64,000 nt of DNA from Variovorax paradoxus (GTDB taxonomy: Bacteria > Pseudomonadota > Gammaproteobacteria > Burkholderiales > Burkholderiaceae_C): assembly GCA_016806145.1 (NCBI GenBank), contig CP063167.1:1298501-1362500 (forward strand). The letters are read 5' to 3'. Both the position numbers and the translations under genes were made by a program. The notes below the pieces were generated by a model, which was not told the DNA's origin, did not search any database, and saw only the letters and a list, made by a program, of their open reading frames with translations. This document shows positions 15,080-27,226 of this stretch, piece by piece. Each line of letters opens with the position of its first letter. Position 1 is the stretch's first letter.

Positions 15080-15293
15080 GCTTGCCTCTTGTAGGCATCC
15101 GGGATGCGTGCCACTCGTTCTGTGCCGGGCCCGGTTCGCAACCCGGTAGAAGCCGCTGTCGCGGCCAGTGGCATCGGCCTTGGCGAGTCGACGCGTGCTT
15201 GAGATCCCGCGTTCGCACTAAGCGCCGCGTTGGAGAGCGAAGGGCGTGGGGCGGGGTGTGCGGTCTTGCTGGCACCTTCACCGTAGCACGGCG

Positions 15294-15423
15294 TTCTCGC
15301 CGTCAAGGGCTGCGCGCCGCTGTGCGGCGCTGGCGGCCTTCGGCCGTCATAGACCCCTGACCGCTGCGCTGCGCCGTGCGGGCCACGGTTTCGGGCAATC
15401 CCGCCCGACAACCGGAGATCATC
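15294..15423 (+). ncRNA. Structured 5' leader A (AATCCC-loop element)
   Basis: First of three related leaders. In order: TTCTCGC (15294-15300); basal stem TCAAGGG (15303-15309) with CCCCTGA (15354-15360, one mismatch) enclosing a GCGGCC-TTC-GGCCGT hairpin; the block GACCGCTGCGCT; a CCGTG/CACGG hairpin (15374-15388); and the CGGGC-AATCCC-GCCCG hairpin (15392-15407) seven bases before the GGAG ribosome site. Compare 16135-16275 and 26730-26857. Likely a cis-acting RNA. Confidence 0.65.
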
Positions 15424-15819
15424 ATGAATGAGAAATCGCACGTGTCGATGGAGCAGCATGTCTGCCTGGTGTGCGGCGTCAGTTTCGAAACCGGCCACCT
15501 GCTGCTCGATCGACGTCTGCGCGCGAGCATGGGGCGGCACACGCAGACAGGTTGGGGCCTGTGCGCCGAGCATCGCAAGATGTTCGACGCGGGGTTCGTT
15601 GCCTTGGTCGAATGCGATCCGCGACGCAGTGGAGCTGCGTCGGCCCAAGGCAACCTCCGTCCGGAGCAGGTGTATCGCACCGGTCAGATTGCGCACCTGA
15701 AGCGCGAAGTGTTCGATCGGCTGTTCGACGTCAGGCTGGCGGCTGACAAGCCTTGCGTGTTCGTGGAGCCTGGGCTGATCGCGCAGCTGCAGGCCATGGT
15801 CGGGCCGCAGCACGACTGA
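15424..15819 (+). CDS. Small Cys/His-rich protein of the accessory region
   Basis: A 131-residue protein of unknown function. ATG 15424 is chosen because GGAG lies 6 bases before it and the structured leader ends there; the frame is open for 16 more codons inside the leader. The N-terminal half has CLVCG near residues 14-18 and CAEH near 47-50, a plausible zinc-binding CxxC/CxxH pair, followed by KMFDAGFVALVECD. No membrane segment. Proteins like this are common as cargo of proteobacterial conjugative elements, and the gene shares its leader type with radC and the DUF2958 gene, which suggests joint regulation. Confidence 0.7.
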   Translation: MNEKSHVSMEQHVCLVCGVSFETGHLLLDRRLRASMGRHTQTGWGLCAEHRKMFDAGFVALVECDPRRSGAASAQGNLRPEQVYRTGQIAHLKREVFDRLFDVRLAADKPCVFVEPGLIAQLQAMVGPQHD

Positions 15820-16134
15820 AGCGCGGTCGGCGCTCGGAAGCGCATCGACGCGCATGGATGCGCCGGGCGCTTCTTCAGGGTCGCAACGCGACCCTCTTAC
15901 TCGGGGCGTGAAGCGTTGCTCAAGTGCCGTGCACTTGGGCGCGTGGCCGGAACGAGCGCTCGCGCGCTGCGTTACGCCGTGGGCAGCTTGATTGGCGCGT
16001 GTCTTGGTGCTTTGCGGCGCATGACGACATTGGGGCGCAGACGACCGCGACCGTGAGCGCAATGCTTCGAATCCCTTCGTTGGCGTTGGGGGGCTGGGGA
16101 GGGCTTGCCTGTGAGCCCTGAGGCTACCCCATCG
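15820..16134. other. Intergenic stretch after the Cys-rich gene
   Basis: No gene supported. It starts with a GC-rich hairpin that can act as terminator (15878-15898). The rest, up to the next structured leader, shows nothing recognisable. Confidence 0.5.
15878..15898 (+). terminator. Probable terminator
   Basis: GGGTCGC-AAC-GCGACCC hairpin followed by a short TCTT tract. Confidence 0.4.
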
Positions 16135-16275
16135 TTCTCGCGTTCAAGGCCCTGCGCGCGCTTCGCGTGCTCGGCGCGTGCCGCGCGCCTGCGGCGGTCT
16201 TGAGCGCTGCGCTGCGACGGGGTGGCGGGGTCTCGCAGGCAATCCCGCCTGTGTCATCCACAGGAGTTCTTCCTC
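16135..16275 (+). ncRNA. Structured 5' leader B (AATCCC-loop element, radC)
   Basis: Second copy of the leader, the most diverged. TTCTCG (16135-16140); basal stem TCAAG (16144-16148) with CTTGA (16199-16203); block GAGCGCTGCGCTGCG; and the CAGGC-AATCCC-GCCTG hairpin (16236-16251). The stem differs from copy A by a compensated pair change, while the loop is identical. The ribosome site CAGGAG is at 16261-16266. Confidence 0.65.
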
Positions 16276-16920
16276 ATGAACACACCCGCTTCCTCTGCAT
16301 CCGCTGGCGCGGAGTCGTCCGAATCCTTGGCGTCGTCCTTTATGGCCGTGCGCACCGAGTGTGAAGTGCTTGTAGCGTTGAATTCGCTACTTGGCGCTGA
16401 CGCGGTGCGGCTTTACGAGGCGCATGGGCGATCGCTACATCGGCTGGTCGGTGCCGCGCGGGATGCGTCGTTTCCCGGCGGAGAGTCGTTGCTGTGCGGT
16501 CTTCGAGTGGCGCGTGCGCTGCTTGTCGAGGAGATGCTGCCGGGCGAGACCTTTGGTTCGCCGAAGGCGGTGGCAGACTATCTGAAGCTGCACTTCGCAG
16601 GGCAGGGGCACGAAAGCTTTGCGGTGCTGTTTCTGAATGCGCAGCATGGGCTGATCGCGTTCGAGGACCTGTTTCGCGGCACGCTCACGCAGACCAGCGT
16701 CTATCCGCGCGAGGTGCTGCGTCGTGCGCTGCGGTACAACGCCGCGGCCGTCGTCCTGGCGCACAACCATCCATCGGGCATGGTCGAGCCGTCACGAGCG
16801 GACCTGGCGTTGACGGCGGCGCTGAAGGACGCACTGGCGTTCATCGATGTGCGGGTGCTGGATCACGTCGTCGTCGCTGGAAGTCGCACGGTGTCCATGG
16901 CCGAGCGCGGCCTCGTCTGA
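16276..16920 (+). CDS. radC: RadC-family JAB domain protein
   Basis: A 214-residue RadC-like protein. The JAMM metalloprotease signature is complete: Glu113, then HNHPSG with His163 and His165, Ser173 and Asp176. The N-terminal 90 residues are helical and lack a clear helix-hairpin-helix, as in mobile-element RadC copies rather than the chromosomal housekeeping form. Members on conjugative elements are usually carried as cargo; their molecular function is unsettled. ATG 16276 follows CAGGAG by nine bases, directly after the AATCCC-loop leader. A strong terminator follows the gene. Confidence 0.88.
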
Positions 16921-16928
16921 ACGAGGCC

Positions 16929-16952
16929 GGGGCGCTGCGCGCCCCATTTTTT
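16929..16952 (+). terminator. Rho-independent terminator after radC
   Basis: GGGGCGC-TGC-GCGCCCC hairpin followed by A and six T residues. Confidence 0.75.
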
Positions 16953-17303
16953 GAGACTGCGCCGCTGTAGCGGTTGCGCGCTTCGAGCCCGGCGGACGGA
17001 TGAAAGGCAAGCCTCGATGCTTTCGGTGGGCGGACGCCGTAGCGTCGCGCACGGCCTTGCCGTTCGGCGCTCGGTGAGCGCAGCGCGTCGCCATACACAA
17101 CAGCATCCAGCTCCAGCGCTTGGTCGGCGCCTCGAGACATGTCACTGGATTGCGCAGCACGCGTGCTGCGAGTCGAAAGTCTTCTCTCGTGAAGGCAAGG
17201 CGTCATCGGACGAGAAAGGGATGTCGTGCTACGCAGCGTGAGCGCGATGGAGGATGGCGAACCCCTTTGTGCCGTTCAGGGACTGCGCCAGCGCGCAGGC
17301 AAG

Positions 17304-17425
17304 TCACGACTTGACCCCGCCGGTCGGCCCGGTGATCAGCACGCTGTGTCTGGAGTCGATCCAGTCGCCCAGCGTCATGCTCATCACGGCCTGGCGGTCG
17401 ACGCCGCGGCCGGCGCGAGCGCCTC
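17304..17425 (-). pseudogene. IS21 helper ATPase IstB, truncated fragment
   Basis: The minus strand reads GRGVDRQAVMSMTLGDWID, then SRHSVLITGPTGGVKS and a stop. This is the segment of IstB running up to the Walker A motif (normally LITGPTGxGKS). The motif is altered (GGVKS) and the protein ends there, so the ATPase core is gone. Confidence 0.65.
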
Positions 17426-17633
17426 CGTCATCAATGGCTGCTCGCCAAGATTGATACCACGGCCAAGATGCACACCAGAGCCCAGGTTCGTGACGTGGCT
17501 CAGGGGCACACGAATTCAGAAACACATTCCTGCACTTTAGGCGAACGCATTTCCACGAATAGACGCCGTTTTCTCCAGTTACGCGGAAAAACCGCTTGAT
17601 GGCTATCGCCGTTAGCAAGCAAACGGCTGTGTC

Positions 17634-17662
17634 TTGACATTTGTGGCTTCGGTAGCTACATT
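17634..17662 (+). promoter_or_regulatory. Strong sigma-70-type promoter
   Basis: TTGACA (17634-17639), 17-base spacer, TACATT (17657-17662). It reads toward the decayed gene and the Phd/PIN module downstream. Confidence 0.6.
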
Positions 17663-17716
17663 TACTGTTTGGCGACCGCGGTCCCGCAGCATCGCTCGAT
17701 TTGGTCAAGGGCAGTC

Positions 17717-18269
17717 ATGAGTCTGCGCGAGGAATACGACATCGAGATGCCGGTCTGGCGCAGGTCGCTGCGGCTTGCCGGCGGGAGTCGGGGCACAGGA
17801 CGCCGCGCGTACTCGCGGATAGACCTGAGATTCAATCGCTTCTCGCAAGGGCACGTCGCATCTTCAACGACGGGGCTGCCAGGAGCGCTGGGCGCAGCGT
17901 CGCGCCACCGCGCGATCACTGGATCATGGAGCTCGACGGCTGGACCAATCTCACAACCGGCGAGAACCGGCGAGCAGGGAAGGCGTCTAACTTATCAGCC
18001 TGGACCCTTCGGGAGAAGCTCGCTGAGGTGCGAGCCGCAACGGCGATGTCTACAACTTTTACGTCAAGCTGCAGGCAATCGATCGGCGCGTGGGCGTGCC
18101 TTTTGGCTGGTATTTCTGCATGCTCGATGGCGACCGCGTTCATGCTGAATCGGGTGAGCACGCGCTGTAGGCGGCCGAAGACGTTCGGACTGTGCTGCAG
18201 GAATGCGACTATCAGGTGTTGAAGACCTGGAAACAACGGCCCTATAGGTTTCAGGAGAGATGGAAATGA
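17717..18269 (+). pseudogene. Decayed gene of unknown family
   Basis: A coherent protein seems to run across three frames: MSLREEYDIEMPVWRRSLR in the first, PPRDHWIMELDGWTNLTTG in the second, and YNFYVKLQAIDRRVGVPFG, WYFCMLDGDRVHAESGEHAL in the third, where an in-frame TAG (18168-18170) is followed by further coding-like sequence to a TGA inside the antitoxin start. At least two frameshifts and one nonsense codon are needed, so it is dead. I do not recognise the family. Its last codons overlap the Phd start, as if once the first gene of that operon. Confidence 0.4.
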
Positions 18270-18535
18270 ATGCCCCCCACGTGATCACGAGCCGCGAGTT
18301 CGGCCACAACGTCAGCAGCGCGAAGCACCTGGCCAAGGAAGGTCCGCTCTTTATCACCGACCACGGCGAACCTGCCTTCGTGCTCCTCAACATCGGCGAC
18401 TATCGAGCGCTCTCCCGAGGCGACGGCGATAGTACGGTTTCGCTGCTTGAGCTGATGGACAGCATGCCCGATACGTCGGAAGTCGAAGACTTCGAGATCA
18501 CTCCGACGGCCATCCAGCTGCGCCCCGAGGTCTAA
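18266..18535 (+). CDS. Phd/YefM-type antitoxin
   Basis: An 89-residue type II antitoxin. The N-terminal Phd/YefM fold is visible: VITSREFGHNVSSAKHLAKE, GPLFITDHGEPAFVLLNIGDY. The C-terminal acidic tail (DTSEVEDFEI) should wrap the toxin. ATG 18266 is preferred over ATG 18260 because AGGAGA at 18253-18258 is 7 bases from it but only 1 from the earlier codon. It is followed after 2 bases by the PIN toxin gene; such antitoxins repress their own promoter as a complex with toxin. Confidence 0.87.
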   Translation: MNAPHVITSREFGHNVSSAKHLAKEGPLFITDHGEPAFVLLNIGDYRALSRGDGDSTVSLLELMDSMPDTSEVEDFEITPTAIQLRPEV

Positions 18536-18537
18536 GG

Positions 18538-18954
18538 GTGTACCTGCTCGACTCCAATGTGCTGGCCGAACTGCGTCCAGGAAAGCTCGGCCAATCAGAA
18601 GAGGTCCGGCGCTGGGCTGGAACAGTTCCACAGAACCAGTTTTTCCTTTCGGCCATCACCATTCTCGAACAGGAGGAAGGCATTGTGCGCCTGGAGCGCC
18701 GTTCACCGCCCCAGGGACAAGCGCTGCGTCGGTGGGCCACGGCCGTCCATAAGGCATTCGCTGGGCGGATCCTAGCTTTCGGCGAGCGTGAGGCGCTGTT
18801 GTGCGCGCCCATGCATGTCCCCGATCCAAGAGCTCGACGCGATTCGATGATCGCCGCCACTGCGCTTTCGCACGGTTTCACTGTGGTCACCCGCAACACC
18901 AGCGATTTCGTCAGCATGCGAGGGCTGAAAGTGTTGGACCCCTGGAACGCATGA
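18538..18954 (+). CDS. PIN-domain toxin (VapC/FitB-like)
   Basis: A 138-residue PIN ribonuclease. The acidic catalytic residues are in place: Asp5 (LLDSNVLAE), Glu44 (TILEQEEG), Asp102 (DSMIAATA) and Asp123 (TSDF). It starts with GTG two bases after the antitoxin stop, so translation is likely coupled and weak. The VLAELRPG and IAATALSHG blocks are of the FitB type. VapC-like toxins usually cleave tRNA or rRNA; the target is not predictable. The module looks intact. Confidence 0.88.
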   Translation: MYLLDSNVLAELRPGKLGQSEEVRRWAGTVPQNQFFLSAITILEQEEGIVRLERRSPPQGQALRRWATAVHKAFAGRILAFGEREALLCAPMHVPDPRARRDSMIAATALSHGFTVVTRNTSDFVSMRGLKVLDPWNA

Positions 18955-19462
18955 AGCTCAATCAAGGATTTCGCCATACCTTGCAAGTCGCTGCGCGTAA
19001 AGCACTTCGCATTCATCCGAGTGATCGCACGGGAGGTGGACCCGCTCAAGAGCTGAGAATCTACTTGGGCCAGGAAAGCCAGAGCATCGACGCGCGCAAG
19101 GTCCCAACGGCCATTGCATGGATCTTCAGTGAATTTGCAGTTCTGTCCCGCGGCAAGCGTGCTCCGGCCACGCGCGCGTAGCAGCGCGATCTGTTTGGGT
19201 GTTGTTTTATGAGAGCGCAGATCTTCCGAGAGAGCCGACCAGCCGTTGTCGCCCGGAGACGGCGGTCTGAAGCCTGACCATTTTGGTGGTGCATGCTGGG
19301 CGCAACGCTTTGGGTTGAGCGGCAGCGTCGCCGTCGCTGAGGCGATGGAGGGTGTGCGCATGCGTCGGTGCGCAACCTTGGGCGCAGATAGCGCTACGCG
19401 CGGTGTATTGTTTGCGCGAAGCATTGCTCGCCTGGCGCGAATGCTCACGCCGACTTGAGCGC
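18955..19462. other. Stretch without a supported gene
   Basis: Both strands are partly open because of high GC, but no frame shows a start with ribosome site plus a recognisable domain. A minus-strand frame across 18498-19880 runs through the antisense of the toxin genes and is not believed. Confidence 0.5.
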
Positions 19463-19783
19463 TCAGCAGGTCAGAGCAGGATTCAACAGTTCGATGCCAG
19501 CACCCTTGCACTTGATCCAGGGGCCGCCAGGATGCCCCTTGCCATCCCAGGCGGCCAGTGCTTGGCGCGCCTCGTGTGCATGTTCGTAGCAGTAGCGGCG
19601 GTGATAGCCGACCGGGTCTACGCCGACGACCACGGCGGTGGTGAAGTTGAATCGGCGAATGCCGCATAACTGGCCTTCGCGCTCGCAGATGTCCGTGTAG
19701 CCGTCCGCTGCCAGCGCAGGCGCCCACGGGTGGTTGGCGAACTGCGAGGTGATAGGCGAGGGCGGCTGGATGCGCATGGTCAT
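19463..19783 (-). CDS. Hypothetical Cys/His-rich protein
   Basis: A 106-residue protein counted from ATG 19783; the frame is open upstream but that part is antisense to the next operon's promoter. Cysteines and histidines are spaced like a metal site: CEREGQLCG near residues 34-42, YHRRYCYEHAHE near 63-74 and IKCKG near 93. No family is recognised. It is divergent from the Phd/zeta module and may be mobile-element cargo. The start is uncertain by a few codons (MTM). Confidence 0.5.
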   Translation of the reverse strand: MTMRIQPPSPITSQFANHPWAPALAADGYTDICEREGQLCGIRRFNFTTAVVVGVDPVGYHRRYCYEHAHEARQALAAWDGKGHPGGPWIKCKGAGIELLNPALTC

Positions 19784-19902
19784 CGGGGGATTGTGGCTCC
19801 CCGATGCCAGCTTGGGCCGAAGCGCCTGCGGCAGTTTGGATGGTGCGATGGTGCGTGGTGCTCGCTCGCTCCTGATCCACCGGTGAGGTATGGTAGGAGG
19901 TG

Positions 19903-19932
19903 TTTTACCCAAAACCCATAAAATGGGTAAAA
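19903..19932. promoter_or_regulatory. Nested palindromic operator before Phd/zeta
   Basis: Outer repeat TTTTACCC (19903-19910) / GGGTAAAA (19925-19932) and inner repeat ACCCAT-AAA-ATGGGT (19914-19928) overlap. It lies 31 bases before the antitoxin start in an AT-rich patch and is the natural site for antitoxin binding. Confidence 0.6.
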
Positions 19933-19962
19933 TATAGAAACTCTGGTTTTGAAGGATCTTCC

Positions 19963-20349
19963 ATGGCTGCCGTTTCCGCGACCGTCGGCTCCTCCGACAT
20001 CGAGCGCTTGGCGCGCGATCTGCCGTCGTTTTCTGCGACGAAGCTGGCCTCGGGCATGCAGGCGGTCGCCAGCACGGTGATGGCGCGCGGCGCGGTGGTG
20101 ATCACGCGCCACGAGAAGCCCGCCATGGTGCTGATGTCGGTGGAGCGCTACCTGCAGATGGAGCAGGCGTCGGAGCCGGACCTCGAGGCCCTCACGCACC
20201 GCTTCGACGACATGTTTGCGCGCATGCAGGGCGAGGCGGCTGCACGCGCGATGGACGATGCATTTGCCATGAATTCTTCGGCGCTGGGTGAGGCGGCGGT
20301 CGCTGCGGCTGCCCCGGCTGCCCCGGCCGCGCCTGCTTCGCGCGGCTGA
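19963..20349 (+). CDS. Phd-like antitoxin of a zeta-toxin module
   Basis: A 128-residue protein with a Phd/YefM-like N-terminus: FSATKLASGMQAVASTVMAR, GAVVITRHEKPAMVLMSVERY. The C-terminus is a long acidic helix followed by an Ala/Pro-rich tail. GAAGGA lies 6 bases before ATG 19963, which decides the start (the frame is open to 19900). Its stop overlaps the toxin start (TGATG). Zeta toxins are classically paired with epsilon, which has a different fold, so this pairing is a hybrid. A nested palindrome upstream fits autorepression. Confidence 0.82.
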   Translation: MAAVSATVGSSDIERLARDLPSFSATKLASGMQAVASTVMARGAVVITRHEKPAMVLMSVERYLQMEQASEPDLEALTHRFDDMFARMQGEAAARAMDDAFAMNSSALGEAAVAAAAPAAPAAPASRG

Positions 20350-20987
20350 TGCCGGCAAGGATCTTTGTGCTGGCGGGCGTCAACGGCGCCGGCAAGAGCA
20401 GTGTGGGCGGCGCCGCGTTGCTCCAGAAAAAGGTCGACTACTTCAACCCCGACTTGGCAGCCCGCGTGGTGCTGGATGCCAATCCGGGCCTGACGGCCGA
20501 GGAGGCCAACGCCCGGGCCTGGGAGTTCGGACGCAAGGGTCTGGAGCGAGCCCTGGCGCAGGGATTCAACTTTGCCTTCGAGACAACCCTGGGCGCGAGG
20601 ACAATCCCTCAGATGCTCGCCGACGGGGCGCGCCAGGGCGCCCAGGTGCATCTTTGGTACGCCGGACTTTCCTCGCCCGAACTTCATGTTGCGCGCGTGC
20701 AGGGTCGGGTCGCTGCCGGTGGCCATGACATCCCGGAAGCAAAGATCCGAGAACGCTATGAGACAAGCCGCTCCAACCTGATCCGGTTGTTGCCGCTGCT
20801 GGCGAGCTTGCGGGTCTACGACAACAGCGCCGAAGGCGATCCCAAGGCAGGACGCAAACCGCAACCCCGGTTGCTGTTGCATATGGAAAACGGGCAGGTC
20901 GTTGGCCACGTTGCGCTGGACCAGGTGCCGCGATGGGCCAAGCCGATCATGGCCGCCGCGCTCATGCATCCCCACAGGGCAGGCTGA
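20349..20987 (+). CDS. Zeta-toxin-family kinase
   Basis: A 212-residue zeta-like P-loop kinase. Walker A is GVNGAGKSS at residues 10-18. YFNPDLAAR follows at about 31-39, the site where zeta proteins carry the substrate-contacting Asp/Asn. FAFETTLGARTI near 72-83 and LWYAGLSSPELHVARVQGRV follow. Zeta toxins phosphorylate UDP-N-acetylglucosamine and block cell-wall synthesis; some family members act on other sugars or nucleotides. Complete in length and motifs. Overlaps the antitoxin stop by one base. Confidence 0.87.
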   Translation: MPARIFVLAGVNGAGKSSVGGAALLQKKVDYFNPDLAARVVLDANPGLTAEEANARAWEFGRKGLERALAQGFNFAFETTLGARTIPQMLADGARQGAQVHLWYAGLSSPELHVARVQGRVAAGGHDIPEAKIRERYETSRSNLIRLLPLLASLRVYDNSAEGDPKAGRKPQPRLLLHMENGQVVGHVALDQVPRWAKPIMAAALMHPHRAG

Positions 20988-21419
20988 GCCCGAGCTTCGA
21001 CACTGTTGACGACATCGCGCAGCGCGTCTTTGCACGAGCTGATTGACGGCATACCCGGAGTGCGAGGCGGCTGACCGCCCGGATCTCCCAAGCGCAGAAG
21101 GCCTTCACGGAGCACCGGAACGCAGAAACCACCCTGGGCGCGCTCTACTTCGACCACGTCTGGAAGGCGGGGCCGACGGCGAGCACCTTCACAAGGTGTC
21201 CGGCGCCGGCCAATTGCCGAAGGACTTCGGGCCTTGGGAGGCCGCGCTCGAGAGAATCGCAAGCAGCCGCGCGGAGAAGAAGGCGGGAGCGCTCCGGGCG
21301 CGCGATCACTGGGCGCGGGAAGATGCGCACCTGCTTCAAGGCAATACCCGCGTGCTCGGCCAAAGCTACCGCCTTGTGGCGGGCGATCTCCAGCAGACGC
21401 GAGTCACCGGTGAGCTATC
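20988..21419. other. Stretch without a recognised gene
   Basis: Several frames carry protein-like fragments (for instance DHVWKAGP and LPKDFGPWEAALERI) that change frame repeatedly. It may be a decayed gene, but no family is recognised. Confidence 0.4.
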
Positions 21420-21960
21420 GTTTTCTTCTGCGCCGTGGTGTCAACGATCGGCCGCTAGAACTTGGCCGGCTCGATGGCGTTGCTGGTGACAGCCGGGTCG
21501 ATGGTGGCCTAGAGCAATTCCTCCACGCCAGCCTCGCCGATGGCCAATCGGAAGGACCCGCGCTGCGTGGCATCGCACGGCAGACGCACTCGTAGAACCG
21601 CATGCCGCTGAAGTGCTGCCCGACGATGTTCTCGGGCCAGCGCTGCACCAATTCCTCGTCGCTGAGGTGGTAGGCATGCTTGAAGTGCATCAGGCTGGCC
21701 CACCGACGCAGGGGAAGTTGCGGGCGCCCGGCGGCGGCAGCAACTGCGCTGGCGACCCGCACGCTGGGGCCTGACAAATCGCCCTGCGCAACGGTCCGGC
21801 CTTCGCATACCTGGCGGGCAAACTCCGGTACCAGCGCGGTCTCCATCTGCGCCCAGGGCAACTGGCTGGCCAGCATCACCAGCGGTGGCGTGCATCGATC
21901 ATCTCGGCCATCGGCTGCCGGAAGAAATCATATCGAGGTGCGTTGATTTTCAGGGGATCT
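21420..21960 (-). pseudogene. IS5-family transposase, N-terminal remnant
   Basis: On the minus strand: FRQPMAEMIDARH, then in another frame LASQLPWAQMETALVPEFARQ and RRWASLMHFKHAYHLSDEEL, VQRWPENIVGQHFSG, the standard N-terminal domain of IS5-type transposases. RLAIGEAGVEELL follows in a third frame. The catalytic DDE part is absent. At least two frameshifts; dead. Confidence 0.7.
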
Positions 21961-22177
21961 CACACCAAACTGCAGCCGCAGAAACCCAGTGCTCATGCGG
22001 GGTGGCAGGGTTTTGCATGGCCGACTGGCTACCTGCCCCGCCGCGGGCGGCGCGCTCTGACTTCGTTCAAAAAGCGCGCTGTCTGCGGGAGCTTGCTATC
22101 ACCAAGCGACTACCCCTTGGAAGGAACTTGACGTTTTACGTAATTCACGAAAATGGTGCTTCTACGGAGATTTCCTC

Positions 22178-22444
22178 ATGATTACTGTTTCCGCAAGCGA
22201 GTTCGCGAAGAATTTCGGCCACTACCGCGAGATGGTTCAAGCTGAATCTGTGGCAGTCACTAGCCATAACCGCGTGACTGGGTACTTTATTTCGAGAAAG
22301 GAGTTCGACGAGTTCGAACGCCTGAAGGCCCGCGCGACAAAGTCATATGAGGTCCAAGACCTGCCAGCTGAAGCGATTCAGGCGCTGTCAAGCAGCGCTA
22401 TGGATTCAAGTCACGATGCCTTGAACGCACTGCTGCGCGACTAA
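22178..22444 (+). CDS. Phd/YefM-like antitoxin (prevent-host-death family)
   Basis: An 88-residue antitoxin. MITVSASEFAKNFGHYREMV is the Phd N-terminus and SVAVTSHNRVTGYFISRKEF the strand pair that forms the DNA-binding fold. The C-terminal part (YEVQDLPAEAIQALSSS) is the toxin-binding tail. ATG 22178 opens directly after an AT-rich promoter-like region. The next gene, a PemK/MazF-like toxin, starts four bases after its stop. It looks intact. Confidence 0.83.
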   Translation: MITVSASEFAKNFGHYREMVQAESVAVTSHNRVTGYFISRKEFDEFERLKARATKSYEVQDLPAEAIQALSSSAMDSSHDALNALLRD

Positions 22445-22448
22445 GTGC

Positions 22449-22954
22449 ATGACTTTTCCGAAACCCGAGGTAGGTCTCGTCGTCTCGTTTGCCTACTTGT
22501 GGAATCACGAAAAAAAAAAGGGCAGACGGAGGGAGTTAAGAATCGACCTTGCGTCATCATCACAGCCGTCGAAGAAGTCGAAAATCGAGTCGTCGTCACT
22601 GTTTCTCGGATCACGCATTCACCCCCGGAAAGTACAAACCTCGGCATCGAAATGCCACCCCCCTTGAGCAATACAATAAAGCCTTGCGGTTTGAGATCCA
22701 TTTTGTATGGCATTCCCTATTCGCGAATAGCGAATAGCGCGGATCAGCTGGCCTTTGACAAGTGCAAGATGCCTGAACGTCAAAACGTCAGCGAAGCCTT
22801 GCCCGACCGTCCAGAGCCCCGGACCGCGATGGCTTCAAGGGTACAGCCGGTACATGCTCCGACAGTCCTCGGTCGCGGCCTCGTTGGAAGAACTCATGTA
22901 GTTCGCTCCGCGGGTAGACCGGGCTCAGGCACCTTGCGTTCGACGGTGTCCTAG
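22449..22954 (+). pseudogene. PemK/MazF-like toxin with A10 tract (-1 slippage site or frameshift)
   Basis: From ATG 22449 the frame reads MTFPKPEVGLVVSFAYLWNH and EKKK, the start of the PemK-like family paired with such antitoxins. An A10 run (22510-22519) follows; in the zero frame it forms the heptamer A-AAA-AAG (22514-22520). A -1 shift there continues as GQTEGVKNRPCVIITAVEEV and VTVSRITHSPPES, the conserved second half (GRKDRPCAIV, LPITHTPP in relatives). In the zero frame translation ends soon after. The C-terminal part of the -1 frame (to 22954) no longer matches the family, so either the toxin is dead or its end is replaced. Confidence 0.55.
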
Positions 22955-23744
22955 CCGATAAAAGGTACCGCGCAGGCTGTCGATCTTTAAATAGCTCGAG
23001 CTCAGCAACTGCAACTGCCAACAGCAGGCGGGTTCTTGCTTCTCCCTTTTGAGGTGCCGACATGTGGGTTGGCTAGTTTGCGCCTGCGCTGGGCGTGTGT
23101 GTCGCGTTGTCGTGTGTACCGTGTTGTGCCGGCGTTCGGTGGACAAAGCGCTCGCGGGTTGCTGGCGCCGGATGCGATCGGTGTTGCAGCGAGAACGCCA
23201 GCGCCATGGGTGAAGTCATGCAGGGCGCCCCAGCGGCTTCGCTGCTGTCGGGCTGCTCCAGGTTCGCGCCTTTGCGCTCATCCCCTGCGGGGACGGCTTG
23301 CAGCCGCCTTGCGCATCCCTGGCGCGGGGCCTGCGGCCCCAGATCCTCGATCAGACCTTTCTGCGGCAGGTGGGGGCGCTCGCCGCGCGGCGGTTCCGGT
23401 GCGCCCCGGCCCGGCGTCTGGGGGCTGCCGTCTTCCTGAGTGCTTCACCTTCTCGGCGACCGTGCACCCGCGCGGCCGGGCGACCGGCTGCGCCTGCAAG
23501 GGGGTGTTCATAACGCTGCGCGTTACGAATGCTTCCCCCTTGCTCTCCCGTCCGAGCGTGCGCGCTGTGTCACCGGGCGAAGAACTCAGGAAGACGGCGG
23601 CCAGGCTCGGCAGCTCGGCCGATGCGATCCGGAACCCTTTCACGAGGGGCTCTGAATCTAGGAATCCGGCAGGGCTTCGTCCATGCATCCATCCATCCAT
23701 TCATTCACTGATTCACGCACTGAAGCGATCGAAAGGAAACGCAC
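22955..23744. other. Long non-coding stretch upstream of the ParB-like gene
   Basis: No supported gene over 790 bases. It contains a long hairpin (23497-23542) and a run of ATCC/ATTC units (about 23687-23706) just before the ParB-like start. Other GC-rich inverted repeats lie at 23300-23470, but this leader lacks the AATCCC loop of the other three. Confidence 0.55.
23497..23542. repeat. Long imperfect hairpin
   Basis: CAAGGGGG (23497-23504) pairs with CCCCCTTG (23535-23542). Inside it TTCATAACG (23507-23515) pairs with CGTTACGAA (23521-23529, one mismatch) around CTGCG. It could be a terminator without T-run, a regulatory RNA or a partition-site candidate. Confidence 0.6.
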
Positions 23745-26051
23745 ATGACTGCCAGAGCGACTGCACGGACCCCTGCGGATACCACTGCGAGCACCGCCAC
23801 CGACCGGGCCAAGGTGGCGCCCGCCGCTGCCAGCGATGGTGCCGCCACGAAGGCGCCGCGGGTTGAAAGGCCCAAGCACGCCGGCGACACGACCCAGGCG
23901 CAGCCTTCGAAGGCTGCCCCGCCGCAAAATCCCACCCACGAGAAACCGGTTGCGAACGAGTCCGGTGCCATTGCCGCCGCGCCGGCGCGCGACATCGACG
24001 TGCCGCTGCATCAACTGGTGCTCGACGACGCCAATGTCCGCAAGGTCCGCAGCGCGGGTGGCGTGGAGGAACTCGCCGCGCTCATCGATGCGCAGGGCCT
24101 GTTGCATCGCCTTGCCGTGGTCGCCCTGGCCGATGGTCGGTTCGGCGTCATCGCCGGGGGGCGACGTCTGCTGGCATTGCACAAGCTCGCCAGCTACGGG
24201 CGATGGTCGGCTGCCAGGCCCGTGGAGTGCCGGCTGTACGACAACGCGCAAGCGGTGGAGATTTCGCTGGCGGAGAACTCGGGGCGCGAAGCGATGCACC
24301 CAGCCGACGAGGCCGAGGCCTTTCTGGCGCGGGTCGAAGCGGGCCAGAGCGTGGCCCAGATCGCTGTGCGCTTCGGCGTGGCACCGCTGACCGTCGAGCG
24401 CCGTCTCAAGCTCGCCCGGCTTGCGCCACGCTTCCTCGCGATGTACCGGGAAGGGAGCATCGCGTCGGACATGCTGCACGCGCTGGCACTGACCGACAAC
24501 CACAAGGCCCAGGAGGCCGTGTGGGACGGCCTGCCCACTTATCGACGGGACGCCTGGACCATCCGACGCCTCCTGACCGAAGGCGCAGCCACCGCGGAAA
24601 GCCAACTCGCGCGCTTCGTGGGCGTCGAGACCTACGAGGCACGAGGTGGCAAGGTCCGGCGCGACCTGTTCGCCAATGACGATAGCGGCCGCTCGGGCAT
24701 CTATCTGGAGGCACCGGGGCTGCTGCGCCAGCTCGCCACGGAGAAGCTGCAAGCGGCGGCCGAAGAGGTGCGCGCCGAGGGCTGGGCGTGGGTCGAAGGC
24801 TTGATCGATGCAGATCGGCTGGCTTTGCGCGCCTATGGGCAGCAGGCGCCGTCCGAACGTGCACCCAGCGACGCGGAGGCTGGCATGTTGGCCGCGCTGG
24901 AGACCGAGCGCGAGCGGCTCGACGCGGCCTACGATCAGAACGAGGCGAAGTCACTGCAGTTCGATGGCGATGGCGATGACGCCTACGAGGCCGAGGAAGT
25001 GCGGCTGTCGGGTCTGTTGAGTGACCTCGACGACCGGATCGATGCGGCGCGCGCCTCGCTGCGGGTCTGGACGCCCGAGCAGATGGGACGGTGTGGTGCG
25101 ATGCTGCGCATCGACAGCGACGGAACGCTCGTCGTGCATCGTGGGCTGCTTCGGCGCGAGCCCGCCCATGATGGAGCCTGCGGCGCTGGCACCGAAGACG
25201 GCGACGGGTTGGTCAGCAAGGCAGAGCGGGGCAGCGAGAGCGGTGAGGCGGCCGAGGCCGGCAAACGACGCGCCGTCTTCAGCGAGAAGCTGATGCGCGA
25301 CCTCACGGCCCATCGCACCGCCGCCTTGCAGGCCGCGCTCACGCAGGACGTCGACGTGGCACTCGCGACGCTGGTGCACCGCATGGTCGAGACGGTGTTC
25401 GATCTCTATGACCGGGGCAATGACATCGTGAGGGTGACGGTGCGGCCAACAGGAGACCTCGCGCTCGCCGAGCATGCGAGCGACTACGTCCATACACCCG
25501 CCGCCGCGCTGCTGGAGCGCGCCGCGAGCGATTGGGGCGAGCGCCTGCCTCGTGATCCGGCCGCGACCTTCCGTTGGCTGCTTTCGCAGGAGCGTCAGAC
25601 CTTGCTGCAGCTGCTGGCCTATTGCACGGCGCGCAGCATCGATGCGATCCAGGGCCGTGAACGCCGGCGCAACCAGAGCGATGCAATCGCCGAGGCGCTC
25701 GGCCTGGACATGGCCGACTGGTGGACGCCAAGTGCTGCGAACTACCTGCACAACGTGAGCAAGGCCAAGGCGGTAGAGGCGGTCAGGGAAGCCAGTGGCA
25801 TCGACTGCACCAAGGAAGTCGCCGCCATGAAGAAGTCCGAGGCCGCGGACTATTGCGCAGCCAAGCTCGAAGGCACGCGTTGGCTGCCTGTTCCGTTGCG
25901 GCCGCTGGTTGCCGGTACGTCGCGCGCCTGCGAGGACGCGCAAGCCGAGCAAGAGAAGAACGATGGGGGAGAAGAAGCCCTGAACCGGGCTGGGCCGGAT
26001 GGCGATCCGGTCTCGGACGCTGGTCGTGACCAACCGGACCATGAGGCCTAG
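23745..26051 (+). CDS. Large ParB-like partition/regulatory protein
   Basis: A 768-residue ParB/Spo0J-related protein. An Ala/Pro-rich tail of about 80 residues precedes the ParB N-terminal domain (about 84-190), with box I-like GRFGVIAGGRRLLALHKL and box II-like AENSGREAMHPADEAEAF. The helix-turn-helix follows (GQSVAQIAVRFGVAPLTVER near 205-225). The remaining 500 residues, rich in Glu and Arg, have no fold I recognise. ParB CTP-binding boxes are present, so CTPase activity is possible. It is typical in size of ParB-like proteins on integrative conjugative elements; no parA is nearby. AAAGGA before ATG 23745 sets the start. A strong terminator follows. Confidence 0.82.
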   Translation: MTARATARTPADTTASTATDRAKVAPAAASDGAATKAPRVERPKHAGDTTQAQPSKAAPPQNPTHEKPVANESGAIAAAPARDIDVPLHQLVLDDANVRKVRSAGGVEELAALIDAQGLLHRLAVVALADGRFGVIAGGRRLLALHKLASYGRWSAARPVECRLYDNAQAVEISLAENSGREAMHPADEAEAFLARVEAGQSVAQIAVRFGVAPLTVERRLKLARLAPRFLAMYREGSIASDMLHALALTDNHKAQEAVWDGLPTYRRDAWTIRRLLTEGAATAESQLARFVGVETYEARGGKVRRDLFANDDSGRSGIYLEAPGLLRQLATEKLQAAAEEVRAEGWAWVEGLIDADRLALRAYGQQAPSERAPSDAEAGMLAALETERERLDAAYDQNEAKSLQFDGDGDDAYEAEEVRLSGLLSDLDDRIDAARASLRVWTPEQMGRCGAMLRIDSDGTLVVHRGLLRREPAHDGACGAGTEDGDGLVSKAERGSESGEAAEAGKRRAVFSEKLMRDLTAHRTAALQAALTQDVDVALATLVHRMVETVFDLYDRGNDIVRVTVRPTGDLALAEHASDYVHTPAAALLERAASDWGERLPRDPAATFRWLLSQERQTLLQLLAYCTARSIDAIQGRERRRNQSDAIAEALGLDMADWWTPSAANYLHNVSKAKAVEAVREASGIDCTKEVAAMKKSEAADYCAAKLEGTRWLPVPLRPLVAGTSRACEDAQAEQEKNDGGEEALNRAGPDGDPVSDAGRDQPDHEA

Positions 26052-26098
26052 CCGGCTGGATTGATACCGAGCATCCAGCCCGCGCAGAGCGCGCCTGA

Positions 26099-26136
26099 GC
26101 CTGTCGCCCGTGAATGTGCGGGCGGCAGGCTTTTTT
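26099..26136 (+). terminator. Rho-independent terminator after parB-like gene
   Basis: GCCTGTCGCCCG pairs with CGGGCGGCAGGC around an 8-base loop, followed by six T residues. A second hairpin, GGCTGGAT/ATCCAGCC, lies just upstream (26054-26080). Confidence 0.85.
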
Positions 26137-26729
26137 GCCTGAGCTCGTGTTCTGACGCATGACGGACCGCGCGGATGCATGACCTCGCGAACAACGAGCG
26201 ATGGCATGTCGCTGCAGCAATCCGCTTCCACCAGCGTCGTGCGCAGCGGCGGTGGCTGGTTTTTTTAAGGGGGTGGCCAGCGCGCTGTGCGCGGGTCGCT
26301 GGTCAGCGCGGGCTTGGGCCCGCGGGTGTTGTTGTGTGGAGCGCACGACTCGCTTCGCCTCGTGCTGGCAGGGCACGACATGGCGTGGGGGAGGGCGTGT
26401 CGCGGTGGCGCGTTTTTTTTGGGCGGTGGCCAGCGCGCTGTGCGCGGGTTACTGGTCAGCGCGGGCTCTGGGCCCGCGGGTGTTGTTGTGTGGAGCGCAC
26501 GACTCGCTTCGCCTCGTGCTGGCAGGGCACGAAATGGCGTGGGGGGGCGTATCGCGGTGGCGCTTTTTTTTTGGGCGGTGGCCAGCGCGCTGTGCGCGGG
26601 TTACTGGTCAGCGCGGGCTTTGGGCCCGCGGGTCTTGTTGTGTGGAGCGCACGACTCGCTTCGCCTCGTGCTTGAGAGGCGTGGTGATGTGGCGGGGCTG
26701 GCTCGCATGACCGTGAGCGTGCCACGCCG
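26137..26729. other. Non-coding stretch with tandem array
   Basis: No gene supported. Most of it is the 152-bp tandem array (26269-26680). Frames that are open across the array only reflect its repetition and GC content. Confidence 0.65.
26269..26680. repeat. Tandem repeat, about 152-bp unit, 2.7 copies
   Basis: GGTGGCCAGCGCGCTGTGCG recurs at 26272, 26425 and 26577 (periods 153 and 152). Each copy carries a GCGGGC/GCCCGC hairpin and a GCACGA/TCGTGC hairpin. The copies are preceded by T-runs of 7 (26260-26266), 8 (26413-26420) and 9 (26564-26572). The last copy is cut after the second hairpin. Non-coding; possibly an array of terminators or of small RNAs. Confidence 0.8.
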
Positions 26730-26857
26730 TTCTCGCTGTCAAGGCCTGCGCGCGCTCTGCGCGCTGGCGGCCTGCGGCCGTCTTCGAGCCTTGACCGCTG
26801 CGCTTCGGCGTGACCGTGACGGTCCTGGGCAATCCCGCCCTTTTCTTGGAGCGTCAC
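26730..26857 (+). ncRNA. Structured 5' leader C (AATCCC-loop element)
   Basis: Third copy. TTCTCGC (26730-26736); basal stem TCAAGGC (26739-26745) with a perfect partner GCCTTGA (26788-26794) enclosing GCGGCC-TGC-GGCCGT; block GACCGCTGCGCT; a GACCG-TGA-CGGTC hairpin (26812-26824); and GGGC-AATCCC-GCCC (26827-26840) shortly before GGAG (26848-26851). Confidence 0.65.
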
Positions 26858-27226
26858 ATGACTTTCTCGTACTTCTTTTTGAGCGACGAACAGGTTCGGC
26901 GACTTGTCGCGAATGGCCGCGCATCGCGCGAATTTGAGGCGCGCGACGAACTCTTCGATCCGTCACCGGTGGTCAAGCTCTTCACGCCGGATGCCGGCGC
27001 GACGTGGTTGCTGAGCGAGATCGATCCCGACGATCCGACGATCGCCTTCGGCTTGTGCGATTTGGGTCAGGGCTATCCCGAGTTGGGATGCGTGAGTCTT
27101 GACACGCTGGCTTGCCTGAGGGGGCCGTTGCGCCTGCCGATCGAGCAGGACGTGGGATTCCAGGCGACGCGCCCGCTCAGTGCCTATGCAGTCGCGGCGC
27201 GCCTGGCGGGCCGGATCGAGGCCTGA
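26858..27226 (+). CDS. DUF2958 domain protein
   Basis: A 122-residue protein of the DUF2958 family, common on conjugative elements and genomic islands. Diagnostic blocks: VKLFTPDAGATWLLSEIDP (about residues 39-57), FGLCDLGQGYPELGCVSL (about 64-81) and the end PLSAYAVAARLAGRI. Function unknown. ATG 26858 follows GGAG by 6 bases and begins directly after the AATCCC-loop leader; the open frame upstream runs through that leader and is not counted. Confidence 0.82.
   Translation: MTFSYFFLSDEQVRRLVANGRASREFEARDELFDPSPVVKLFTPDAGATWLLSEIDPDDPTIAFGLCDLGQGYPELGCVSLDTLACLRGPLRLPIEQDVGFQATRPLSAYAVAARLAGRIEA

Follow-up and report, generated by a model that had tools for sequence, protein, structure and literature searches.

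Three leader copies in a Variovorax paradoxus island

The window analysed here is a 64,000-nucleotide (nt) stretch of Variovorax paradoxus DNA (assembly GCA_016806145.1, contig CP063167.1, positions 1,298,501 to 1,362,500 of the forward strand; positions below are counted from its first letter), and within it three plus-strand genes of an island are each preceded by a copy of one folded leader. The genes are those for a Cys-rich protein of 131 residues (15424..15819), for RadC with a RadC-like JAB domain (16276..16920; PF04002, E 3.5e-43) and for a DUF2958 protein (26858..27226; PF11171, E 1.6e-38). Copy 1 of the leader (15283..15418) lies before the Cys-rich gene with its start codon at 15424, copy 2 (16124..16267) before radC (16276) and copy 3 (26719..26852) before the DUF2958 gene (26858). 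They score 131.7 bits (E 2e-27), 75 bits (E 6.3e-15) and 120.1 bits (E 7.6e-25), respectively, against R1, a covariance model of 137 positions and 35 base pairs built from 42 copies; the three window copies sat in its alignment, so these E values are not independent. Their fold z-scores are -3.4, -4.3 and -3.7.

An earlier note, made from the letters of the window alone, had placed leaders before these genes with, in order, TTCTCGC, a TCAAG/CTTGA stem, a GASCGCTGCGCT block and an AATCCC hairpin ahead of the ribosome site. Each block was found in the leaders; the location stood, and the limits were corrected to those given above, where the element is closed by a stem, P1. The sequence CGTTCTCGCNNTCAAGG occurs three times in the window without mismatch, every time at a leader, and eight times with up to three mismatches against 3.1 expected. 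Neither the loop block alone (11 window matches with up to two mismatches, 14.6 expected) nor GACCGCTGCGCT alone (23 under the same limit, 27.4 expected) is enriched; the blocks taken singly are thus at chance level, and it is their ordered co-occurrence that carries the weight. After the three leaders the next R1 match in the window has an E value of 0.046, and a search of the whole genome gave no fourth copy below E 0.1 (the fourth match has E 0.79).

The pairwise global identities of the three leaders are 0.72, 0.79 and 0.72, compared with 0.618 ± 0.026 (maximum 0.686) for 200 random pairs from the window. Flanks more than 30 nt away have identities of 0.61–0.64, near background, and the closest 30 nt upstream 0.63–0.70. 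A recent duplication, or a leader peptide acting as an attenuator, would explain why the three copies are similar and why a TGA in stem P2 is almost invariant. We regard this as highly improbable. The flanks are dissimilar, which led us to reject recent duplication as the source of the copies, and the distance from TTCTCGC to the TGA is spread over the three frames (45, 42 and 18 of the 105 copies measured; 11 were not measurable). No upstream reading frame is kept, and the attenuator was rejected for this reason.

A conserved fold and its covariation

From the outside in, the element consists of P1, TTCTCGC, a stem P2 that bears the hairpins P3 and P4, then GCTTGCGCTG or GCTGCGCT, the 3' strand of P1 and finally a hairpin, P5; all lie on the plus strand. 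In copy 1 the 5' strand of P1 (CACGGCG, 15287..15293) pairs with CGCCGTG at 15372..15378, and the stem reads CACGSCG/CGSCGTG in copies 1 and 3, where it is the outermost closing stem. The 5' strand of P2 (TCAAGGG, 15303..15309) has its partner, CCCCTGA, inside GACCCCTGA (15352..15360). Between them stand P3 (GCGCCGC/GCGGCGC, 15314..15330) and P4 (GGCGGCC/GGCCGTC, 15332..15348). P5 (15386..15417) has an outer helix, CGGTT/AACCG, around an inner hairpin, CGGGC-AATCCC-GCCCG, and runs into the Shine–Dalgarno sequence (SD), GGAG, at 15414-15417. In copy 3, P5 spans 26817..26856, with TGACGGTCC (26817-26825) pairing at eight of nine positions with GGAGCGTCA (26848-26856) and the SD lying inside. The stem that the earlier note had called basal thus exists as P2 and is not outermost; the closing stem P1 had been overlooked, and so had the helix that surrounds the inner hairpin of P5.

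The corresponding hairpin of copy 2, CAGGC-AATCCC-GCCTG followed by CACAGG(AG), lies at 16236..16266. Here CCTGTG could instead pair with CACAGG, which abuts the SD, and the loop hairpin would then not form; such an arrangement would suit a switch. The same hairpin also scored as terminator-like, with one such hit found and 1.0 expected by chance. The AATCCC loop, described as invariant, is so among the window copies but not across the family: among 116 non-redundant copies it is AATTCC in 65 and AATCCC in 40, with four single other forms and seven copies outside the search pattern. Written as AAUYCC it is partly complementary to GGAG, and a pseudoknot between loop and SD is conceivable.

Selection on the folded sequence was tested in two ways, and both bear out what the earlier note had proposed. 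In the MAFFT alignment of the 42 copies, 93.8% of the paired cells hold a pair, compared with 87.6 in shuffles; 15 of the 35 pairs show double changes (7.1 in shuffles), in 67 cells (15.3 in shuffles), and none of 500 shuffles equalled the native alignment on any of five measures. Sliding one partner by one to three columns leaves only 33-42% paired, a control that favours the native over the slid versions, the structure having been derived from the same alignment. The second test used the 116 non-redundant copies (sharing no more than 95% identity, with a mean of 75.5%) and a custom, tree-aware null that is independent of the structure: the substitutions of each column were replayed on the tree in 60 simulations. 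The top three of about 15,400 column pairs all lie in the predicted stems P2 and P3. The first is P2 pair 57-101 (GC 70, TA 30, CG 8, AT 6; E 0, none in 60 simulations), followed by P3 pairs 66-72 and 65-73 (E 0 and 0.07); the fourth (E 1.2) falls outside the predicted pairs. Significant covariation, whose absence from more homologues the earlier note had said would speak against the fold, is therefore present in both sets. The covariation that it had seen in the stem of the loop hairpin stood in part: this stem does vary, chiefly in its outer two pairs, but it fails the tree-aware test, and the stems that covary most strongly are P2 and P3. P4 and the inner stem of P5 are nearly invariant and carry little information on covariation; P4 therefore goes without covariation support. 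Compensatory base changes within a conserved fold are present in P2, P3 and P5, and the leader is a real, selected structured family of conjugative elements.

Sequence conservation extends a little upstream of the fold. In copy 1 a TTGCTG block (15266..15271) stands behind a G-rich tract, about 20 nt upstream of P1, and its TTGC columns are more than 90% conserved in the alignment of the 116 copies; counting this upstream tract would lengthen the element by about 30 nt. A G-rich tract with a TTGC or TCGC block precedes each window leader (15240-15271, 16080-16111 and 26677-26709) and is conserved in the family. It may be a promoter, or else an operator, of an unfamiliar type; no sigma-70-like -10 element was found on the leader strand at these tracts. 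A promoter in double-stranded DNA, with an operator of inverted repeats bound by a regulator, would account for such a tract just upstream of P1, and inverted repeats can be operators. We nevertheless think this quite unlikely, since pairing-preserving changes in P2, P3 and P5 are unexpected for an operator that is read as sequence and the element ends at the SD. A second upstream block, CTGACGCCTCCGGCC...GGCCTGCGCGCTNCGCTTGCC, about 50-110 nt upstream of P1, echoes parts of the leader itself (in L074, L162 and others). Its strict pattern is found in 54 of the 116 copies and variants in several more; as it is not universal, it was left outside the definition of the element. Just upstream of the DUF2958 leader, at 26235-26672, a G+C-rich stretch of 132 nt is repeated imperfectly, three times head to tail, at a spacing of about 153; the outer two copies share 61% and 96% identity with the middle one.

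The earlier note had raised the Rfam radC RNA motif (RF01754) as a possible identity. That family presumably sits upstream of radC and other DNA-handling genes, and the leader shares the placement upstream of radC. According to Weinberg et al. 2010 (PMC2864571), RF01754 is likewise a cis-regulatory candidate of Proteobacteria, and the lengths are similar (149 and 137 model positions). At its gathering score of 40 bits, however, RF01754 gave no match in the window or in 13 distinct relative loci, and the leaders tested gave none when the limit was relaxed to E 5-10. The model does work elsewhere: four of 349 other genomes, from a single genus, have matches, and in these the consensus and the helices differ throughout from those of the leader. 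Its consensus hairpins, GCuGacGUuguCaGC and AGGcAGCC...GGCUgC, are absent from the consensus of the leader, which has another helix order. Membership of RF01754 is thus refuted at the level of both sequence and fold, and we give it virtually no credence. Two other Rfam families, PyrR209 (on the minus strand) and BTH_s1, overlap leaders with sub-threshold matches at chance level; the leader matches no Rfam family tested. Among the open-access PMC papers listed for it, none describes it as judged from the title or the start of the abstract.

Genes and mobile elements that carry the leader

Searching genomes with R1, a step that the earlier note had suggested, revealed a large family. With strict filters and few candidates scored per genome, the counts are lower bounds: within the same family R1 is found in at least 98 of 399 genomes, which belong to 57 of 141 genera, with up to eight copies per genome, and beyond it in at least five of 321 genomes of the class and at least seven of 378 of the phylum, the window's own genome included. 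Single-copy BLAST searches give evidence independent of the model. The Cys-rich leader alone matched 277 plasmid records, 256 of which are typed as conjugative, the DUF2958 leader 181 plasmid records under a laxer limit, and the radC leader two. By DNA similarity, the host records of leader plasmids include Salmonella, Pseudomonas, Citrobacter, Klebsiella, Enterobacter, Hydrogenophaga, Variovorax and others; in Escherichia coli the leader is present in two of 5,426 genomes, both times on a plasmid. Phage records gave four weak partial matches, none spanning 80%, and nothing convincing.

The genes that follow are few in kind. R1 gave 201 matches (149 and 52 in two sets, the larger capped at 100 sources and the other including 31 viral-contig loci picked by hand from 120, four of the 31 with a leader); 200 were used, L110 having been left out for want of a normal start, and of the 163 unique copies 157 have an open reading frame directly behind them. 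By BLAST to the window proteins this frame is RadC in 79 cases, DUF2958 in 43 and the Cys-rich protein in 25, making 147. Among the remaining ten, Pfam identifies DUF932 behind leaders L356 (531-671) and L100 (267-411) and a DUF3363 relaxase behind L166 (1501-1638), so that the gene set is wider than three families. A further three (L097, L147 and L331) are short frames with beginnings that look RadC-like by eye and have no Pfam match; the others went unassigned, and in L142 the longest-frame rule may have chosen the wrong frame. When one DUF2958 locus was taken from each family-bearing genome among 150 searched, 15 of 30 had the leader directly upstream; the DUF2958 gene therefore also occurs on its own. 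For some database proteins (P0001, P0030 and P0065) the annotated start falls within the leader, part of which is then read as N-terminal coding sequence.

The Cys-rich protein matched no Pfam, NCBIfam or PADLOC family. It has 743 homologues, some of them labelled 'ATPase' by the source records, and a modest structure model (mean predicted local distance difference test, pLDDT, of 70.3) for which there was no PDB fold match at E <= 0.001; nor did its sequence match the PDB up to E 1. Elsewhere in the island, the frame at 20349-20987 matches Zeta-toxin/AAA_33 (PF06414, E 1.9e-6), and 23745-26051, between the radC and DUF2958 leaders, encodes a 768-residue ParB-like protein with matches to TIGR03734 and TIGR00180 below their cut-offs.

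Where a locus carries several copies they lie on a common strand in all 42 distinct cases (these are short stretches, the window with its 64 kb being the longest). The gene order RadC, Cys-rich, DUF2958, by BLAST labels, is kept in 35 of these 42 loci, and in one more if an unlabelled third gene that is DUF2958-like at its start is counted; the window is among the exceptions, the Cys-rich gene coming first. In 32 of the 42 the neighbouring genes are 669-841 nt apart and each has its own leader, which argues for control of the individual cistron.

Three annotated neighbourhoods hold an integrase, a PDDEXK nuclease, a radC or Cys-rich gene, DUF932, ParB, DUF2958, RepA and ParA, and two of them additionally an S26 peptidase and a relaxase. 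We take this gene order to be that of Tn4371-type elements. RadC-like frames behind the integrase are mentioned for such elements in the available text of PMC2789088. Three more plasmids, of different make-up, have a single copy each, before radC. In all, eight named records were scanned in full, with copy numbers of 5, 1, 2, 1, 1, 1, 1 and 1; the six with a single copy span several unlike backbones. Seven of the eight are typed as conjugative, RadC is present in six and absent from two, and in three of the named elements the relaxase gene is on the same strand as the genes that carry the leader. A Variovorax plasmid (L142, NZ_CP070344.1) has four leaders within 3 kb (17066-19962), one of them degenerate (43.6 bits), and a fifth, weak leader elsewhere on the record.

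With G+C-rich hairpins, up to eight copies per genome and a mobile setting, the element could be thought a selfish or passive repeat, REP-like (repetitive extragenic palindrome) or MITE-like (miniature inverted-repeat transposable element), that has been copied beside these genes. This seems to us very unlikely: the element sits directly before the start codon, three gene families stand behind most copies, its P5 is gene-specific, and the genome of the window has no other strong copy.

Pairing at the ribosome site and possible action

The two parts of the leader differ in how they relate to the gene that follows. Over all unique labelled copies, P1–P4 are as alike between gene classes (identity 0.854) as within them (0.848), whereas the P5/SD part is gene-specific (0.690 between classes and 0.802 within). 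Within one locus the copies are slightly more alike in P1–P4 (0.871) than are copies of matching classes from other loci (0.855); the value within the locus is the higher one in 54 of 74 cases (p 2e-4). A conserved fold that reaches the SD, with a first domain shared by all gene classes and a second tailored to each, is thus observed; in terms of sequence, this is the trace expected of a shared reading domain joined to a gene-fitted output hairpin.

The fit of the second domain was measured as the best helix between the 5' arm of P5 and the stretch up to the SD, in 108 of the 116 copies. This outer helix scores 12.8 with the native arm, 9.9 with a shuffled arm and 10.0 with an arm from another gene class (p about 1e-15, for copies that are not independent), and it touches the SD in 93 of the 108 (86%), compared with 46% for shuffled and 56% for foreign-class arms. 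In an ensemble calculation on 107 copies (the remainder of the 116 being without the loop, SD or start pattern), the contrast is weaker than with the helix score: the pairing of the SD with the arm is 0.608 in native sequences, 0.510 in shuffled and 0.542 in swapped ones.

The explanation that we favour, and hold to be somewhat more probable than the rest together, is that of a cis-acting structured leader RNA serving as a translational switch of establishment-type genes. The family, of about 137 nt, would lie in the 5' untranslated regions of conjugative-element genes, chiefly radC, DUF2958 and the Cys-rich gene. The branched domain closed by P1, with P2, P3, P4, TTCTCGC and GCTTGCGCTG, is the same whatever gene follows, and should thus be the site at which a common signal (a protein, an RNA or a small molecule) is read. 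P5, with its loop AAUYCC and an outer helix remade for each gene class, would pair into the SD and hold translation down, and its release by the first domain would free translation. We infer action as RNA from the position of P5 at the SD, its refitting to each gene class and a plus strand without promoter hexamers in the scanned stretches; occlusion of the SD in the cell, a signal common to the copies and an establishment role of the genes would follow from the same reading.

Several results weigh against this explanation. Only three column pairs pass the tree-aware null, and the best pair of P1 ranks tenth (E 4.6). Pairing of the SD with any partner in the ensemble is 0.660 in native sequences, barely above shuffled (0.650) and swapped (0.627) controls, which lowered our confidence. 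In the Cys-rich class the pairing of the SD with the arm (0.459) is below both swapped (0.604) and shuffled (0.538) arms, and the radC copy of the window has a poor outer helix in the register of R1. As to the strand, the RNAalifold energy prefers the antisense in 30 of 30 subsets, and G-U cells (32) equal A-C cells (30). Near copies 1 and 2 a single sigma-70-like site was found (0.1 expected). It lies on the minus strand (15448-15421), where the Cys-rich gene begins, and is aimed back across leader 1, so that an antisense transcript is possible. The single-sequence energy prefers the sense strand in 76 of the 116 copies; folded as antisense, the three window leaders have z-scores of -3.0, -2.0 and -4.6.

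The strand tests thus leave the other strand possible, and with it the chief rival, in which the fold acts in single-stranded DNA (ssDNA) during transfer as a promoter of the Frpo/ssi type or a priming site that would turn on leading-region genes ahead of second-strand synthesis. The conjugative typing of seven of the eight named records, the single strand shared by nearby copies and the co-stranded relaxase in three elements are all consistent with it. According to the available text of PMC11541004, Frpo promoters are known to drive leading-region genes, and candidates are recognised by -35 and -10 elements in the fold; from this and the available text of PMC12826799, Frpo and ssi promoters resemble the leader as folded elements in a conjugative setting. 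They hold their -35 and -10 elements in the fold, unlike the leader, which has the SD inside it and no sigma-70-like site on the plus strand in a linear scan of two window stretches (folded, mismatched hexamers fall outside such a scan). Its stems are G+C-rich, and its conservation reaches the SD, with P5 refitted to the SD of each gene class, which a promoter alone would not need. We therefore consider action in ssDNA unlikely.

Returning to the translational switch, its closest counterpart in kind is EGeRS1 of the conjugative pLS20-family plasmids. In the available text of PMC8708921, highly similar folded G+C-rich regions with inverted repeats precede scattered establishment operons and extend as far as their ribosome-binding sites, by a mechanism that is left open there. 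The shared trait is the same folded region, up to the SD, before several genes of one element; several genes of one element each with a leader are indeed seen here, whereas most of the plasmids with a single copy do not show it. EGeRS1, likened to the leader by description, is from Bacillus and 400-600 bp long. The leader, at about 137 nt, comes from proteobacteria, and its covariation has been measured.

In translational riboswitches and in mRNA leaders bound by a protein, those of preQ1-I geometry included, a conserved sensing domain precedes a variable hairpin in which the SD is masked. The leader resembles them in its conserved first domain, its variable SD hairpin and a loop partly complementary to GGAG, and it differs from them in that its putative regulon is on mobile elements. 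The earlier note had envisaged one trans-acting factor that switches translation of scattered island genes. That such genes share a leader at the SD is supported. One shared factor is no more than possible, given that six of the eight plasmids have a single copy, on several unlike backbones; a host-encoded partner, chromosomal RadC included, may also exist. An obligatory partnership with the RadC of the element was rejected, RadC being missing from two of the eight leader-carrying records.

A radC gene can thus have a structured leader other than the radC RNA of Rfam, and the leader is present in about a quarter of the sampled genomes of the family (at least 98 of 399) and on plasmids of Salmonella, Klebsiella and others. 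Few systems that time the expression of establishment genes are known from the sources as available to us (ssDNA promoters and repressor release). Should the leader prove to be a translational switch, the timing of RadC, DUF2958 and Cys-rich protein synthesis would become directly accessible, and the three would form one defined regulon. Tentatively, and at less than even odds, the conjugative elements of Burkholderiales and their neighbours may have a regulon at the RNA level, in which an exchangeable sensing domain stands before several establishment genes, each with an SD hairpin fitted to it. One signal encountered as a new cell is entered would then free the translation of them all together, independently of promoters and of regulators belonging to the element.

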